A DNA stretch of 43,388 bases from Deltaproteobacteria bacterium (GTDB taxonomy: Bacteria > Desulfobacterota > GWC2-55-46 > JADFVP01): positions 1-43,388 of the forward strand of contig JAJRZX010000106.1 of assembly GCA_024275045.1 (NCBI GenBank), in the 5' to 3' direction. Shown here piece after piece: positions 3,400 to 13,624 of the stretch. Every line of letters starts with the position of its first letter. Position 1 is the first letter of the stretch. The notes below the pieces were generated by a model, which had not been told where the DNA came from, searched no databases, and worked only from the letters and a program-made list of their open reading frames with translations. Both the position numbers and the translations under genes were made by a program.

Positions 3400-4041
3400 C
3401 TACTTCCACCTCTCTGTCTCAAGGGAACGGCCCTTTAATATACTGTGACACCTTAGGCAATTAGCCCTTGGCCAGAAGGTAAAGGCCACCTTGCCGTGAC
3501 ACCTTCCGCACCACTTGCCCTTCCATATCTCATCCATGGTAATAGGGTTGGCCCCGGCCTCGGGGATAAAGATCTTGGGGTGACAGTTACTGCATTTAAG
3601 CCAATATGTATGTATGGAGTGAGGGAAGATAACATTGGCCATAAGAGGGACCTTGGCCTCTATGAAGATATTAAGGTCAAGCATGGGCTTTTCCTTGTCC
3701 TTGGGGTCAAGGGTGCCGCGGGGGTTTATGAACCCGCCCATAACAGAGGCCGTCCAGTTCACAAGGCCCTCTGTGTCCTTTGGAAGAGAGTTAAGGGCCG
3801 TTGGCTCACCGGGCAGGACTTTCATGGAAGCCCTCTGCACAACGCTGCGGTAAAACTGCTCGTAGTAATCAGACATGTGCCCGCCTGCCTTATCTACCTC
3901 TTCCTGCTTTGTGCCTGCCTTGAAGTTAAGGAGATAATCCACATTATCCGTACCGCACCCCCAGAGCCCCCATACAAGCAGGGCAGAGACCACGGATAGA
4001 AGCAGCCGTCTTGAGAGTTTTTCCTTAGCAGATACCTTCAC
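3400..4041 (-). CDS. Triheme c-type cytochrome, probable lipoprotein
   Basis: This 213-residue protein has an N-terminal hydrophobic signal segment (about residues 12-28) followed by WGCG, which could be a lipobox Cys although Trp at -2 is unusual. The C-terminal third holds three heme motifs, CSNCH, CGRCH and CLRCH, plus extra histidines (FPHSIHTYW) that could be distal ligands, resembling class III / c7-type small multiheme cytochromes. The central part carries no recognisable domain. It lies between the tetraheme cytochrome (4190-5077) and the NHL lipoprotein (2091-3167) on the same strand, with gaps of about 150 and 230 bases, so the three probably form one operon. It should act in the periplasm or at the outer membrane. 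Confidence 0.82.
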   Translation of the reverse strand: MKVSAKEKLSRRLLLSVVSALLVWGLWGCGTDNVDYLLNFKAGTKQEEVDKAGGHMSDYYEQFYRSVVQRASMKVLPGEPTALNSLPKDTEGLVNWTASVMGGFINPRGTLDPKDKEKPMLDLNIFIEAKVPLMANVIFPHSIHTYWLKCSNCHPKIFIPEAGANPITMDEIWKGKWCGRCHGKVAFTFWPRANCLRCHSILKGRSLETERWK

Positions 4042-4189
4042 AGTCTCTATTTACTACCTCCCCTTATTGCCCTTACAAGGCAACGACCCGAGAACGGGCC
4101 GCCTAAAACTCCCTTTTTTGTCCTCAATACCGGAATACCGGTAAAAATTACTATAAAAAAAACTTTTTTGTAAAGGCGCTTAACAAAAC

Positions 4190-5077
4190 TTACTTTCCGT
4201 GACATGTACGGCACACGCTTGATGCGTAATTACCGCCAACACGCCTCAGAAATAGCCCGTCAGCGTCATCCCAGTTCTTGAATGTGCCTGAAATCTCATC
4301 CCAGCTCTTGTTGTTAAAGTGCGGGTCATGGCAGCTTGAGCACTCTATCCTGCCGTCTCGGAGAAGGTCTCCAATGGTGGCCGTATCAGAGATATACCCC
4401 TTTATGGACCAGAGGTTGGAAAAGAGCACCCTGTTTGGAACAGCCCCATCGAAGTCAAGACCTGTTTTCAGGTTTATCTGACTGATTATGGTCTTTCTCA
4501 GCCTTAAAGACGCCACCTTGCCGCCTCTGAAAAATACATTCACGGGATGGTCGTCCGTAAGGGTTGGCGCAAGCACAAGGCGCGTATTTACAGTAGGTGC
4601 CGAGGTCTTTTTATCAGTTACGGTACAACCCCAGGCTCCGGGGGTCTCTACTTCAGGAACCTTTCTCTTACCCGGGGAGTTGGCAATGCTGTCAAAGGCC
4701 GTTGCCCCGTCATGGCAGCTGAGGCAAGCCAGAGACGGTGACCCCAGGCCGGTAGTTGAGGGTTTTGCCCCCGGGTTATTGGATACAGGGGCATTGGTGC
4801 CATAAGCCGTGTAACTTGTGGAGGCCCCGGCCTTACCTGTCCAGAGAGGGCCTTTTTCTTTTAATGGAGTGTGGGGGGTATGACAGTAGATGCAGATCTG
4901 AAAGGTAGTCTCCGTCCGTACGGCATCACCGTACCTGCCGAGGTTGTGCCGTGAAAAACCAATGCCATTGGCCGCGGAACCCACCTCGTAATCGCCCTCG
5001 TAGGTTCCGGAGTAACCAAGACCCGCGTAGCCTACGACAAACATCACAGAAAAAATGGCGGTAAAAAGAGCTCTCAT
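4190..5077 (-). CDS. Periplasmic tetraheme c-type cytochrome, paralogue of the gene at 825-1838
   Basis: The protein (295 residues) starts with a signal peptide (MRALF..., hydrophobic to about residue 22) and has four CxxCH motifs: CIYCH, CLSCH, CSSCH and CRTCH. CIYCHTPH and CSSCHDPH carry the PH pair of the doubled-CXXCH family. It shares layout and several stretches (SRHNLGR, the CLSCHDGAT region, DDHPVNV, FLRRVGGN) with the other tetraheme protein, so the two arose by duplication. I take the ATG at 5077; an in-frame GTG at 5101 is possible but lacks a ribosome binding site, while AAGG precedes 5077. It heads a probable operon with the triheme and NHL lipoproteins and is preceded by a leader of about 315 bases. 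Confidence 0.85.
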   Translation of the reverse strand: MRALFTAIFSVMFVVGYAGLGYSGTYEGDYEVGSAANGIGFSRHNLGRYGDAVRTETTFQICIYCHTPHTPLKEKGPLWTGKAGASTSYTAYGTNAPVSNNPGAKPSTTGLGSPSLACLSCHDGATAFDSIANSPGKRKVPEVETPGAWGCTVTDKKTSAPTVNTRLVLAPTLTDDHPVNVFFRGGKVASLRLRKTIISQINLKTGLDFDGAVPNRVLFSNLWSIKGYISDTATIGDLLRDGRIECSSCHDPHFNNKSWDEISGTFKNWDDADGLFLRRVGGNYASSVCRTCHGK

Positions 5078-5257
5078 ACCTTTGACCTTAATATGGCCCA
5101 CTCTGAGAGCGGACGTTTTTAAGACACCTCTTTTAAAGAGGAAGCGCCCGGCATCACAGCGAGCACCGGTTCAATAACCATTGTATAGCCCTACACCATA
5201 ATCAGGAGCCGCCTTAAAACCGCCTCCCTGTCAAAGATGTATACCTCATGTTAAAGT

Positions 5258-5565: not shown

Positions 5566-6960
5566 ATGAGCCTGTGTTCCGGTTTCGAGCCCGAAGCGGT
5601 CTTAAAGACAGCACTTGCCCACGGTGGGGAGTTTGCCGACATCTTTGTAGAAGAAGCGGTAAAGACCAATATTACGTTTGAAGACAAAAAAATCGAAAAA
5701 GTCATTACAGGCATAGACCGCGGCTGCGGAATAAGGGTTATCGCAGGGCTTAAGACCTTTTACGCCTATACCAACGAGATATCCGCACCATCCCTTAAGG
5801 GACTTGCAGAGGTTGTGGCAAAAGGGGTGGCAGAGGGTACATCAGCGGGCACGGTCCGGAAGATGATCCAACAGAGGGCTCCGGGTTTTGAGATAAAAAA
5901 CAACCCCTCTGAGGCGGCCCTTGCCGAGAAGGCGGATTTTGTAGTACGCGCCGATAAAGCAGCAAGGGGGTTTGATAATAGAATCGTACAGGTCAAGGCC
6001 CTTTACGGCGATGTATCACGAAAGCTTGCCATGATAAATTCACTTGGCCAGTGGGTGGAAGAAGAAAAAACAGGTTTTGTCTTCTTTACCTCTGCCATTG
6101 CGGCTGATGGCGATGTGCTGCAGACAGGTTACGAGCCCCTTGGCGGGGCAATGGGGCTTGAGGCGTTCATCACTACCCCTCCTGAAGAGGTGGCCATCAG
6201 GGCGGCAAAGAGGGCAGTGCAGATGCTCGGCGCAGAGCGGGCCCCTGCCGGCACCATGGCCGTAGTACTCTCAAGCGAGGCCGGGGGCACCATGATACAC
6301 GAGGCCGTTGGACACGGACTTGAGGCAGACCTTGCCCTTGCCGGGCTCTCTGTCTACTCTGATAGAGTAGGCGAGACAGTGGCCTCACCCCTTATAACGG
6401 TTATTGACGACGGCACCATACCCTTTAAGAGGGGCTCTGCATTTTTTGATGAAGAGGGCTCTCCCACTCAAAAGACCGTACTTATAGAAAACGGCGTACT
6501 CAAGGGTTATATGTATGACAGGCTAAGCGCCATGAAGGCAGGGGGAGGGGCAAAGTCCACGGGCAACGGCAGACGCCAGTCCTATCGCTACAAACCCATA
6601 CCGCGCATGACAAATACCATGATAGCCCCCGGCCATACCCGTCCCGAGGAGATAGTAAGCTCCCTGGAAAAGGGTTTATTCGTAAAAAAAATGGGCGGCG
6701 GGCAGGTAAACACCGTAAACGGCGACTTTGTATTCGAGGTAACAGAGGGCTTCATTATTGAAAAAGGCAAGATAGGCGTACCTGTAAGAGGGGCTACCCT
6801 TACGGGCAATGGTCCGGAAATACTACAAAAAATCGATATGGTGGGCTCTGATCTCGGTTTCGCCATCGGGACCTGCGGAAAAGACGCCCAGGGCGTCCCT
6901 GTAGCCGATGCCCAGCCAACGCTGCGCATACCTGAGATTACCGTAGGCGGTGGCATCTGA
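5566..6960 (+). CDS. tldD: TldD-family metallopeptidase
   Basis: The 464-residue product matches the TldD/PmbA (modulator of DNA gyrase) family in length and layout. It carries the zinc-site motif HEAVGH at residues 245-250 (HExxxH) followed by GLEAD, which marks the catalytic TldD subunit rather than TldE. The N-terminal domain has the typical EDKKIE...GCGIRVI stretch, and the C-terminal part has NGRRQSYRYKPIPRMTNT and ends in PEITVGG. TldD works with TldE in the cytoplasm as a protease that processes small peptides and unfolded protein. No tldE partner is in the window. The ATG at 5566 is fixed by an ideal AGGAGG and a promoter just upstream. It appears to be monocistronic: a 416-base gap separates it from the ATP synthase genes. 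Confidence 0.93.
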   Translation: MSLCSGFEPEAVLKTALAHGGEFADIFVEEAVKTNITFEDKKIEKVITGIDRGCGIRVIAGLKTFYAYTNEISAPSLKGLAEVVAKGVAEGTSAGTVRKMIQQRAPGFEIKNNPSEAALAEKADFVVRADKAARGFDNRIVQVKALYGDVSRKLAMINSLGQWVEEEKTGFVFFTSAIAADGDVLQTGYEPLGGAMGLEAFITTPPEEVAIRAAKRAVQMLGAERAPAGTMAVVLSSEAGGTMIHEAVGHGLEADLALAGLSVYSDRVGETVASPLITVIDDGTIPFKRGSAFFDEEGSPTQKTVLIENGVLKGYMYDRLSAMKAGGGAKSTGNGRRQSYRYKPIPRMTNTMIAPGHTRPEEIVSSLEKGLFVKKMGGGQVNTVNGDFVFEVTEGFIIEKGKIGVPVRGATLTGNGPEILQKIDMVGSDLGFAIGTCGKDAQGVPVADAQPTLRIPEITVGGGI

Positions 6961-7376
6961 GCAAAAAGCAAAAAAAAGTGCGGGGCTGAGAGTCTGAAGA
7001 ATACGCCTTAACGCACCGCATAAAAGACCACAGTCATACTCGCAAGGTGGCGGTTTATCCGCATCATGCTTCGTTGGAGATGTGTTTTACGCATCTCAGG
7101 CGCTTATGAATCACAGTGTAAACATGTGGCAGGCGTACTTATAAAAGGGGCTTTTGCCTGCTCCCGACAAAAATGCATTTTACACCTAAAAAGGTGCTCT
7201 ACGCACATAAAAACAGGGTGAGCCGCGCACCGCACCCGGCTTATCCATAATTATCTTGACAATTCCTCGCCTCGTGTGTTAGGAATTGCTTGATTAATCT
7301 GTAAAATTTATTCCTTTTAGAGATAAAAACCTGGGGAGGGCGAGGCGCTCCCCTTTGTTATCGGGAGACAAGGGTA
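6961..7376 (+). other. Intergenic region upstream of the ATP synthase operon
   Basis: No gene is visible in these 416 bases. A TTGACA lies at 7256-7261 but no good -10 follows at normal spacing. An inverted repeat ATTCCT/AGGAAT spans 7262-7286. A GGGGAG/CTCCCC hairpin (about 7333-7353) followed by TTT lies about 20 bases before the first operon gene and resembles a weak terminator. GGGAG (7363-7367) is the ribosome binding site of the first ATP synthase gene. Confidence 0.5.
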
Positions 7377-8351
7377 ATGTTAACGCTGGACCTTACCACT
7401 ATATACCAGATTATCGGTTTCTTCGTCCTTCTTATCATCCTTAACCGGTTGCTCTTTAAGCCCCTTCTTAAGGTCATGGAAGAGAGAGAGAGGCATACCG
7501 GGGGGACTGTAAAAGAGGCCGAAGAGATAGAAAAAGAGATAAAAGAAGGTCTTGCAGCCTATGAGAAAAAACTTCTCGAGGCCCGTGTAAAGGGCGGCGA
7601 GGTGCGGCAGAAGTTAAAAGAAGAGGCCCTTGCCGAAGAAAAAAAGCTCCTTGAGGCCGCAGGCGCCGAGGCGTCAAAAGAGCTCTCCCTCATGCGAGAT
7701 AAGATTACCGCGGAAAAGGACTCCGCCATTACAAAACTCACGGCAGAGACAAAATCCATCTCAAGAGAGATAGCCGGAAGACTTATTGAGAGAAAACTGG
7801 CCATTATCCTTATAGCGGGTTTTCTTACCGCTCTTCCCGTTTTATCAATGGCCGCGGAGCACAGCGAAGAAGGCGGAGGTCACGGCCTTGGATTATGGAA
7901 GATAATCAACTTCATCCTCCTCGTGGTGGGCGTTTACCTTGTCTGGACAAAGGTTATCAACGTGGCCCTTGACAAGAGAAGCGCCGAGATAAAAAAGACC
8001 CTTGATGACGCGGCGGCCATGAAAGCGGTGGCAGAGAAATCCGCCCTCCTGTATAAAGAGAAGCTCAATGCCCTGGACTCCAAGCTTGCCTCCATTACCG
8101 AGGAGCTCAGGTTAGAGGGTCAGGCAGAGAAAAAACGCCTTATACTTGAGGCCGAGCAAGCGGCGAAGAGGCTGAAAGAGCAGGCAAAGGCCACGGCAGA
8201 GCAGGAAGTAACAAAGGCCCGCCTGGAAATCAGGGGCGAGGTTGCCGAACTTGCCATAAAGATGGCAAGAGAGATCCTCGAAAAAGAACTAAACCCAGAG
8301 GACCAGCAGCGCCTTGTTAAAGAGTACATCTCAAACCTGCGCCTGAATTAA
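7377..8351 (+). CDS. ATP synthase Fo subunits b' and b fused in one polypeptide
   Basis: The 324-residue product contains two ATP synthase b-type stalk units in one frame. Residues 8-31 are a membrane anchor followed by a long charged coiled coil to about residue 140 (b', as in separate AtpX/AtpF2 proteins). A hydrophobic stretch at 141-158 ending in a signal-peptidase-like SMA-AEH then leads, via a His/Gly-rich linker, to a second anchor (174-194) and a second coiled coil ending in KEYISNLRLN, matching AtpF (b). Residues 141 onward look like the signal-bearing N-terminus of a deltaproteobacterial AtpF joined directly to the end of b'. No ATG, GTG or TTG lies in frame near the junction. GGGAG precedes the start. 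It opens the operon bfused-atpH-A-G-D-C. A sequencing or assembly deletion at the junction is an alternative. Confidence 0.85.
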   Translation: MLTLDLTTIYQIIGFFVLLIILNRLLFKPLLKVMEERERHTGGTVKEAEEIEKEIKEGLAAYEKKLLEARVKGGEVRQKLKEEALAEEKKLLEAAGAEASKELSLMRDKITAEKDSAITKLTAETKSISREIAGRLIERKLAIILIAGFLTALPVLSMAAEHSEEGGGHGLGLWKIINFILLVVGVYLVWTKVINVALDKRSAEIKKTLDDAAAMKAVAEKSALLYKEKLNALDSKLASITEELRLEGQAEKKRLILEAEQAAKRLKEQAKATAEQEVTKARLEIRGEVAELAIKMAREILEKELNPEDQQRLVKEYISNLRLN

Positions 8352-8488: not shown

Positions 8489-9034
8489 ATGAAAAACACA
8501 ATTATTACAAAAAAGTTGGCCTCTGCCCTCATGAACGTGGGCATTGACGAGCACTCCACTGAGAGGCTGGGCAAAGACCTCCTGACGCTAATCGAAATCT
8601 TCTCGGCGAACAGCGAGCTTACGGGAGTTCTCCTTAACCCCATGCACGGACTGCAGGCACGCCAGGACCTTATGCAGAAGATCTCCCGTACAGCCGAGGT
8701 CAGCACTGTTATTGAAAAATTCATGAACTACCTTATTGAATCAAGGCACGTTCGCCTCTTAAGAGACATAGAGACAGCCTACTCAAGGCTTGATGATGAG
8801 CTCTCTGGCAGGCTGCGCGCCATTATAGAGGCCCCCTCCGAGCTCTCGGAAGGGCTTAAGGCTGAGATAAAGACAAAGCTTGCCGGGATTACCGGTAAGG
8901 ACGTTGTACTGAACTTCAAGAGCGACCCATCTCTAATCGGTGGCCTTGTAATAAAACTGGACAATACCGTTATCGACGGCAGCATAAAGACTCAGCTCGA
9001 ACTCTTGCGTACCAAAATGATTGCAAGAGGCTAA
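8489..9034 (+). CDS. atpH: ATP synthase F1 subunit delta
   Basis: The 181-residue product has the size and layout of the delta (OSCP) subunit, which joins the peripheral stalk to the top of F1. The N-terminal helical domain contains the family's LA-AL...G-ID segment and NPM(H)G...R-LM. The C-terminal part ends with the conserved DPSLIGGLVIKLDNTVIDGSIKTQLELL block. It lies between the fused b'/b gene and atpA, as in standard operons. A 137-base gap, rich in short G/C palindromes and with no recognised gene, separates it from the fused gene. The Shine-Dalgarno before this ATG is weak (only GTAAAAG-like bases). Confidence 0.93.
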   Translation: MKNTIITKKLASALMNVGIDEHSTERLGKDLLTLIEIFSANSELTGVLLNPMHGLQARQDLMQKISRTAEVSTVIEKFMNYLIESRHVRLLRDIETAYSRLDDELSGRLRAIIEAPSELSEGLKAEIKTKLAGITGKDVVLNFKSDPSLIGGLVIKLDNTVIDGSIKTQLELLRTKMIARG

Positions 9035-9062: not shown

Positions 9063-10592
9063 ATGATAAAGGCAGAAGAGATAAGTAACCTTATCAGGAC
9101 CAGTATCGAGGGTTTTGAGAAAGAGGTAGACATTCAGGAGGTAGGAACCGTTATCTCCGTGGGTGACGGAGTTGCCAGGATATACGGTCTGGAAAAGGCC
9201 ATGGCCGGTGAGCTTGTGGAGTTGTCAGCAGGTCTCTTCGGCATGGTGCTTAACCTTGAAGAAGACAACGTGGGCGTAACCGTACTTGGCGAGGACTTTG
9301 GCATTAAAGAAGGCGATACCGTAAAGCGTACGGGCAAAATTGTGGAGATACCCGTTGGCGAGGGGCTCATGGGCCGCGTTGTAGACGCCCTTGGCAACCC
9401 CATTGACGATAAGGGCCCCATAGAGTCCTCTGAGTCCAGAAGAATCGAGATAAAGGCCCCTGGCATCGTAGCGAGAAAATCCGTTAAGGAGCCTCTCCAG
9501 ACAGGCATTAAGGCCATTGACGCCATGATACCCATAGGGCGCGGCCAGCGTGAGCTCATCATTGGCGACCGCCAGACAGGCAAGACCGCCATTGCCATTG
9601 ATACGATAATCAACCAGAAGGGTCTGGACGTCTTCTGCATATACGTTGCCATAGGTCAGAAACAATCAACAGTTGCGCAGATAGTAAAAAAACTCACCGA
9701 GCACGGGGCCATGGACTACACGGTTATCGTAGCCGCCACGGCATCAATTCCCGCGCCTCTGCAGTTCATATCCCCGTACTCGGGATGCACCATAGGCGAG
9801 TATTTTAGAGACAGCGGCAGACACGCCCTTATCGTATATGACGATCTATCCAAACACGCCGTAGCCTACAGGCAGCTCTCGCTGCTGCTCCGTAGACCTC
9901 CGGGCCGTGAGGCATTCCCAGGAGACGTATTTTATCTCCACTCAAGGCTCCTTGAGAGGGCATCAAAACTCAGCGACGCCCTTGGCGGAGGCTCACTTAC
10001 GGCTCTGCCTATTATTGAGACTCAGGCCGGAGACGTATCGGCTTATATTCCCACAAACGTCATATCCATTACAGACGGTCAGATTTACCTTGAGTCCGAC
10101 CTCTTCTACTCAGGCATACGCCCGGCCATTAACGTTGGTCTCTCAGTCTCCCGTGTTGGCGGCAGCGCGCAGGTAAAAGGCATGAAGCAGGTTGCCGGTA
10201 CAATGCGCCTTGAGCTTGCCCAGTACAGAGAGCTCGCGGCCTTTGCCCAGTTCGGCTCAGACCTTGACCCGGCCACGCAGCGCCAGCTTGCCCGAGGTGA
10301 GCGCCTTGTTGAGATACTGAAACAGAACCAGTACTCCCCGCTCTCCGTGGAAAAACAGATTATCGTAATTTACGCCGCCACAAACGGCTTTGTAGACGAT
10401 TATCCCCCTGAAGACCTTGTACGGTACGAACAAGAGCTCTACACCTTCTTTGAGACGAGAAAGGCCGATCTTCTGGCAGCCGTAGCAGAGAAGAAAGTCC
10501 TTGATGATGACTTGAAGGCAAAGGTAAAGGCCGCCCTCGAAGAGCTCAAGGGCCTCTTTGTCCCAAGCAGCAGCAAGGTTGCGGCAGAGTAG
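9063..10592 (+). CDS. atpA: ATP synthase F1 subunit alpha
   Basis: The 509-residue product is a full-length, well-conserved alpha subunit, the regulatory nucleotide-binding subunit of the F1 hexamer. The Walker A motif GDRQTGKT is at residues 168-175, preceded by the typical [19 protein letters not shown]-type stretch. The [17 protein letters not shown] signature (the arginine finger region) is present near residues 355-372, and the C-terminal helical domain is complete. AGGGGTGG lies just before the ATG. It follows atpH by 28 bases and precedes atpG by 40 bases, so the three are clearly cotranscribed. Nothing unusual was seen in the sequence. Confidence 0.98.
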
Positions 10593-10632: not shown

Positions 10633-11511
10633 ATGCCCGGCTTAAAAGACATACAACGCCGTATTAAGAGCGTAAAAAACACCCAGCAGATTACAAAGGC
10701 CATGAAGATGGTGGCCGCCGCCAAGCTGCGCCGCGCTCAGGAGAACATCGAGGCCGCGCGCCCATATGCCGAGAAGATGGCCGAGCTTGTCTCCTCACTT
10801 GCCTCCATGAGCAGCCCTGAGAGCCATCCGCTTCTGGCAAGCACCGGTGGGCCCAGAACAGGCCTTCTCGTCGTCACCTCTGACCGAGGTCTATGCGGCG
10901 GTTTTAATACCTATCTCATCAGAAAGGCCGAGAACTTCATGTCCGAGAAAGGCAGTGATAACGTCAGCCTCAGCCTCACGGGCAAACGCGGGCTTGACTA
11001 CTTTAAGAGACGTAACGTTCAGATTATTGACTCAAAACCCGCTACCTCCGTAACCCCTTCTTATGAATCGGCGCGCGAGACCGCCCTTAAACTCATAGGG
11101 CTCTTTTTAGGGGAGGAGCTTGACGAGGTTCATATCATATACAGCCGCTTCGAGTCCGCCCTGACGCAGACCCCTGTGGTGCAGCGTCTGCTGCCCCTTG
11201 CGCCTGAGGCAGGTGAGAGAGAAGAGAGCGGCGCAGAGGAAGGCGAGAGCACAGAGGTTCTTTACGAGCCCTCTGTGGATCAGGTCCTTCAGAACCTTCT
11301 TCCAAAATATATAGAAGTACAGATATACAGGGCGCTCCTTGAGTCCGCCGCCAGCGAGCACGGCGCGAGAATGACGGCCATGGACTCAGCCTCAAGAAAC
11401 GCCTCTGATATGATAGGCTCCCTCACGCTTCGCTACAACAGACTGCGTCAGGCTGCTATTACAAGTGAGCTGATGGAAATCATAAGCGGATCCGAAGCCC
11501 TTAAGGATTAG
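10633..11511 (+). CDS. atpG: ATP synthase F1 subunit gamma
   Basis: The 292-residue product is the central rotor shaft of F1. The N-terminus PGLKDIQRRIKSVKNTQQITKAMKMVAAAKLR-type block is split here by the family's normal variation and is nearly canonical. The core holds TSDRGLCGGFN and the C-terminus holds the MTAMDSASRNASDMI signature and the LRYNRLRQAAIT...EIISGS helix that enters the alpha3beta3 hexamer. A short acidic insertion (about residues 195-212, EAGEREESGAEEG) lies in the surface domain, where length varies between species. It lies 40 bases after atpA and 58 bases before atpD, within the same operon. Confidence 0.97.
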   Translation: MPGLKDIQRRIKSVKNTQQITKAMKMVAAAKLRRAQENIEAARPYAEKMAELVSSLASMSSPESHPLLASTGGPRTGLLVVTSDRGLCGGFNTYLIRKAENFMSEKGSDNVSLSLTGKRGLDYFKRRNVQIIDSKPATSVTPSYESARETALKLIGLFLGEELDEVHIIYSRFESALTQTPVVQRLLPLAPEAGEREESGAEEGESTEVLYEPSVDQVLQNLLPKYIEVQIYRALLESAASEHGARMTAMDSASRNASDMIGSLTLRYNRLRQAAITSELMEIISGSEALKD

Positions 11512-11557: not shown

Positions 11558-12988
<1,431 letters not shown>

Positions 12989-13210: not shown

Positions 13211-13624
13211 ATGGCTGACAACTTTTTACTTGAGATAATAACCCCTTCGAGAAAACTTCTCTCTCTTGAGGCCGAAGAGCTTACTGCCCCGGGGGAGCTT
13301 GGAGAGTTCGGCATATTGCCGGGGCATATGCATTTTTTCTCTCTTCTACGCGCAGGCGAGGTCTCCTACAAGTCAGGGGCCGAGAGAGGCCGCATAGCCA
13401 TCAGCACGGGTTACGCCGAGGTTGGCCCGGATAAGACCATACTCCTTGTGGACAGCGCCATGACAGAGGCCGAGATAGACACAGGTGAGGCCCGCGAGGC
13501 CATTACCGAGGCCGAGGCCAAGATGAAGGGACATGAAGAGGACGACCCTGCTTACAAGGCCGCTGCCGATGACATTGAGTACGCCGAGGCCCGCATAACC
13601 CTGAAAGAAGGGCCGTCCAAGTAA
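13211..13624 (+). CDS. atpC: ATP synthase F1 subunit epsilon
   Basis: The 137-residue product has the beta-sandwich N-terminal domain of epsilon: ITPSRKLLSLEAEELTAPG followed by GEFGILPGHMHFFSLL and ISTGYAEVGPDKTILLVDSA. The C-terminal helical arm is acidic and complete. Epsilon links the gamma shaft to the c-ring and can inhibit ATP hydrolysis. It is last in the operon and is followed by a strong terminator. It lies 222 bases after atpD, and no clear Shine-Dalgarno precedes its ATG, so its translation may be weaker or controlled separately. The membrane subunits a and c (atpB, atpE) are not in this window; in deltaproteobacteria they often sit elsewhere. Confidence 0.95.
   Translation: MADNFLLEIITPSRKLLSLEAEELTAPGELGEFGILPGHMHFFSLLRAGEVSYKSGAERGRIAISTGYAEVGPDKTILLVDSAMTEAEIDTGEAREAITEAEAKMKGHEEDDPAYKAAADDIEYAEARITLKEGPSK

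Follow-up and report, generated by a model that had tools for sequence, protein, structure and literature searches.

The atp operon and the fused b'-b gene

Within the window, which is the whole 43,388-nucleotide stretch of DNA analyzed here, a single frame on the plus strand (positions 7377 to 8351; ATG start, 324 codons, and a TAA stop) joins atpX and atpF, the genes for the ATP synthase subunits b' and b, as a sequence-only reading had proposed. In a genome scan, Pfam ATP-synt_B (PF00430) matched the encoded chain twice (7401 to 7790 and 7896 to 8282), and each of the two domains has an N-terminal anchor (that of b being assigned from sequence) and a long coil. The b' part (residues 1 to 140; 7377 to 7796, plus strand) comprises a membrane anchor at about residues 6 to 25 and a coiled coil, and terminates in IAGRLIERK, where separate b' proteins read IAEKILxRxV(A) and stop; A133, K135, L137, and R139 of this end are nearly invariant across the fused copies. 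It is followed by a 19-residue hydrophobic stretch with an AxA-like motif at its end (residues 141 to 159; 7797 to 7853, plus strand), the putative internal signal peptide, with h-region LAIILIAGFLTAL and c-region PVLSMA. The predicted signal peptidase I cut lies between A159 and A160 (7851 to 7856, plus strand). The predicted mature b (residues 160 to 324; 7854 to 8348, plus strand) contains the second PF00430 stretch, is matched by b subunits in the PDB, and is laid out as an acidic, Gly/His-rich periplasmic stub, a membrane anchor (about residues 174 to 191), and a coiled coil. The separate orthologues in sister families identify the first half of the chain as b' and the second as b, in agreement with the two anchor-and-coil units that had been read from the sequence, and the junction (residues 138 to 142), the hydrophobic segment (141 to 158), and the SMA/AEH site (slash, predicted cut) lie where that reading had placed them. 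By family, each half of the fused protein is ordinary, one a b' and the other a b. The separate b' (AtpX/AtpG) and b (AtpF) of Desulfobacterota, cyanobacteria, and chloroplasts belong to the same families and share the b'-then-b order and the operon position.

The operon continues on the plus strand with atpH, an unfused gene for delta (8489 to 9034; PF00213, TIGR01145), and with atpA (alpha, 9063 to 10592), atpG (gamma, 10633 to 11511), atpD (beta, 11570 to 12988), and atpC (epsilon, 13211 to 13624), the last four assigned from their open reading frame translations; the gene order is thus b'b, delta, alpha, gamma, beta, epsilon. The subunit a gene is located on a different contig of the same genome. 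No other b or b' gene was found in the source genome (2.28 Mb, 99% complete), so the fused gene is its only stator source. The genome also encodes signal peptidase I and an RseP-like protease, each with the expected motifs (HELGH and LDGG in the latter). The mycobacterial b-delta fusion (NF009961; PDB 9vkp and 8j0s) likewise involves a stator subunit of ATP synthase, but it permanently joins b to delta, whereas here the partner is b' and delta is separate; the fused chain scored 32 bits against NF009961 (cut-off 328). Its score against the N-ATPase alternate b model (TIGR03321) was 98.5 bits, with a cut-off of 224.7, so it belongs to neither of these two kinds.

Upstream of the operon is a gap of about 400 bases (6961 to 7376), in which, as around the fused gene itself, neither Rfam matches nor inverted repeats were found. 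Just beyond it lies a gene for a TldD/PmbA-type metallopeptidase homologue (5566 to 6960); we know of no link between proteases of this type and membrane protein maturation. Farther upstream, on the minus strand (3400 to 5101), are genes for two predicted exported multihaem c-type cytochromes, each with several CxxCH haem-binding motifs.

Distribution and origin of the fusion

Among 48 genomes of the same order, one of uncultured Desulfobacterota-type bacteria, the gene was present in 42, representing seven families, and all 43 copies were fused (none split), far more than chance would give; the remaining six, which lack any match, reflect assembly gaps or loss. Each copy has an uninterrupted frame across the junction and covers residues 1 to 324 or nearly so, except in one genome (G021) whose contig starts inside the gene. 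A direct frame check established the fusion at 26 loci, and the carriers include a single-contig genome of 2.75 Mb (G012) as well as the Deltaproteobacteria bacterium metagenome genomes GWA2_54_12, GWB2_55_19, and UBA5799, names that suggest the uncultured Desulfobacterota class GWC2-55-46. The sequence-only reading had named a deletion at the junction as its main alternative. The window does come from a 156-contig assembly, but an assembly or deletion artefact that joined two separate genes is refuted by this conservation across independently assembled genomes, none of which has a stop at the junction, and we assign it practically no weight.

In sister families of the same class (f8, f10, and f11), b' and b are encoded by two genes. 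Their b' is about 142 residues long and ends in IAEKILERKVA followed by the stop, and their b has its own start and signal peptide, ending for example in SPVFA/AGEEGHGE. The other sampled members of the phylum are likewise split, and no b'-b fusion was found among these genomes or at any locus from outside the order; the FUSED flags on loci L116 and L130 were false, similar b and b' sequences having both matched one protein of 141 to 154 residues. At one sister-family locus (L044 in genome G055, about positions 1223 to 1229 of the reversed strand), the TAA of b' is directly followed, in the same frame, by the ATG of b, an arrangement that looks like the step before fusion.

In a tree built from 43 fused and 29 split b'/b pairs, a branch supported at 100/99 set the fused copies apart from the split ones, and 200 of 200 bootstrap trees agreed. 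The simplest reading of these sequences is a single origin of the fusion at the base of the order. Comparison with plasmid and phage families gave no full-length match to the fused protein. Searching the open-access literature turned up no previous description of a b'-b fusion in nature. We conclude that the fusion is genuine and conserved, arose once, and has apparently not been reported before. One genome (G009) holds two copies (L036 on contig C12 and L037 on C113) that share 89% identity and both lie close to the end of their contigs; these represent either two ATP synthase operons or a strain mixture in the assembly.

The junction segment

The residues expected around a signal peptidase cut are conserved across the 43 copies. 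Position -1 is A or G in every copy, position -6 is P in 38, and position -3 is a small residue in 40; among the three exceptions, L034 is merely aligned one residue off (it reads ALA/SGG), and L018 and L026 carry L. The window's own copy has S instead of A at -3, which is still allowed. No other small-x-small pair of the protein is as well conserved as residues 157 and 159 (93%, the next column pair reaching 79%), which bears out the signal-peptidase-like site that had been noticed at SMA/AEH. The h-region is 10 to 14 residues long (mean 12), strongly hydrophobic with a mean Kyte-Doolittle value of 2.95, and short for a stable membrane span; the net charge is +1.6 right before it and -2.3 right after it. 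As scored by motif and composition rather than by a trained predictor, the conserved motif is a predicted signal peptidase I site.

The split relatives suggest where this segment came from. Their b' stops at the same residue, and the signal peptide of their b ends in the same motif, AxA followed by A or S; the leader of split Desulfobacterota-type b has the same cleavable look as the segment in the fused chain. The chloroplast b also has a leader that is removed. Compared with the separate genes, the single fused chain retains the b' end in full together with the h- and c-regions and lacks the stop codon, the start codon, and the n-region of the signal peptide. Judged by these relatives, residues 141 to 159 are the ancestral N-terminal signal peptide of b, and the end of b' apparently stands in for its n-region.

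Purifying selection acts on the junction. Its dN/dS, pooled over 11 close pairs, was 0.15, compared with 0.13 in one coil and 0.10 in the other, and synonymous change was ordinary (pS of 0.435 versus 0.42 and 0.455 in the coils). Because both values resemble those of the coils, the junction is translated and selected as a peptide and does not conceal a strong start signal. These values bear on whether b might be made separately from an internal start inside the fused gene, a reading prompted by the ATG, GTG, or TTG codons found in some relatives close to the junction or immediately ahead of the b anchor. However, the copies share no start codon position, several relatives have none from -14 to +21 codons, and codon 141 shows an ordinary mix of synonyms. 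The sequence-only reading had reported no in-frame start near the junction; strictly, the ATG of M158 lies 17 codons past it, but this only candidate in the window's own copy is ATG in just 2 of 43 copies and has no Shine-Dalgarno-like sequence, so a conserved start there is not plausible. An internal start, whether placed at the junction or ahead of the b anchor, was rejected and is very improbable.

Proposed maturation of the precursor

The structure of the b' part constrains what can happen to the chain. Over residues 10 to 140 it aligns without gaps with 27 of 29 split b' proteins, and the spinach b' of the solved enzyme matches residues 2 to 137 and ends three residues later. AlphaFold2, applied to the whole chain, predicted b' as a single unbroken helix from residue 6 to 132, so no hairpin would bring its end back to the membrane; confidence was below 50 over residues 134 to 180, making the model uninformative for the junction and the b anchor region. 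In solved enzymes the C termini of b and b' lie far above the membrane, beside delta. The b subunit of E. coli spans 212 of 232 Å (PMC6131620). The b' C terminus cannot sit by delta while the residues that follow it are in the membrane; hence, either the tail is removed or the chain is used in an unfamiliar way.

We consider it probable, from the sequences compared here, that the product of the gene is a b'-signal peptide-b polyprotein, cleaved after A159 by signal peptidase I and a second time near residue 140 to free b'. One precursor would then supply the whole peripheral-stalk dimer of an F-type ATP synthase. The b' part would insert through its N-terminal anchor, with its coil staying in the cytoplasm, and the hydrophobic residues 141 to 159 would be recognized by the export machinery as a signal peptide whose n-region is the positively charged b' end. 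After cleavage by signal peptidase I, mature b would begin in the periplasm with its acidic, glycine/histidine-rich stub, as in relatives, cross the membrane, and form the second coil. A single cut would leave b' tethered to the membrane by its C terminus, so a second cut is predicted, close to residue 140, that would take off the remaining hydrophobic tail; its most plausible agent is RseP, an intramembrane site-2 protease, or else another membrane protease. We infer both cuts and the topology of the precursor from sequence, and the RseP-like protease as the agent of the second is a guess by analogy.

Two other fates of the chain were weighed against this polyprotein. If it were left uncut, it would act as a permanent single-chain stator with residues 141 to 158 as an extra membrane helix, a reading compatible with a frame that is open and conserved across the order and with the existence of permanent ATP synthase subunit fusions such as the mycobacterial-type b-delta proteins. 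Placing residues 141 to 159 in the membrane, however, would put b' residue 139 at the membrane surface, although the b' coil is unbroken, of normal length, and ends where the separate b' does, whose C terminus adjoins delta; moreover, the hydrophobic segment is short and carries the conserved AxA site. We regard the uncut stator as unlikely. Equally improbable in our judgment is cleavage by signal peptidase after A159 only, with the complex tolerating a b' that retains a hydrophobic C-terminal tail. Such a scheme accounts for the signal peptidase motif and for a second cut having no sequence motif of its own, but the b' C terminus could not take up its usual position if its tail were anchored in the membrane, and it would be unusual for a hydrophobic tail to hang free at the top of F1.

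Known systems offer parallels to the proposed two-cut polyprotein. The b'-b gene resembles FbcH of Bradyrhizobium japonicum, which Thony-Meyer, James and Hennecke are said to have described in 1991 (PNAS 88:5001) as a cytochrome b/cytochrome c1 polyprotein split at an internal signal peptide. Both encode two subunits of one bioenergetic membrane complex in a chain with an internal signal peptide, and both have relatives with two separate genes; the uninterrupted frame, the separate genes of relatives, and the conserved internal signal peptide with a signal peptidase I motif were all found here. The complexes differ, and in FbcH the protein ahead of the signal peptide, being integral to the membrane, can remain there, whereas b' should need a second cut. 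FbcH is the closest precedent for the proposed b'-b polyprotein. For the second cut, the anti-sigma factors RsiV/RsiP provide a comparison: one membrane protein is cut by signal peptidase and then by the site-2 protease RasP (PMC8844934). As proposed for b'-b, signal peptidase acts outside, an intramembrane protease follows, and the cytoplasmic part is released, but RsiV/RsiP undergo regulated destruction of one protein, whereas b'-b would undergo constitutive maturation of two subunits. Site-2 proteases are also described as clearing leftover signal peptides in E. coli (PMC8144685). Because such proteases act in these two settings, one of them fits as a candidate for the second cut.

Extended to the order, the proposal is that its stator derives from a b'-signal peptide-b polyprotein cut by signal peptidase I and then by an intramembrane protease, with proteolysis obligatory in ATP synthase assembly; for this wider claim we see the chances as evenly balanced. 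To our knowledge, bacterial ATP synthases are nearly always put together from subunits that are translated separately. The single origin would have fixed both stator rods in one precursor across the order, with b's own signal peptide as the joint, and a core energy enzyme probably obtains two of its subunits by the cutting of one precursor, which is rare in bacteria. If processed as proposed, the precursor would tie ATP synthase assembly to signal peptidase and, we infer, would by its design deliver b' and b in a 1:1 ratio to a stalk built from one copy of each. The gene also offers a well-defined case in which to study how bacteria excise a signal peptide that lies inside a protein and release the portion preceding it.

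In fused and split forms alike, the periplasmic stub of b (window positions 7854 to 7895, and the corresponding residues of relatives) is dominated by E, G, and H residues (EGGxHxxGSGM), a composition suggestive of a possible role in metal binding or in cutting.
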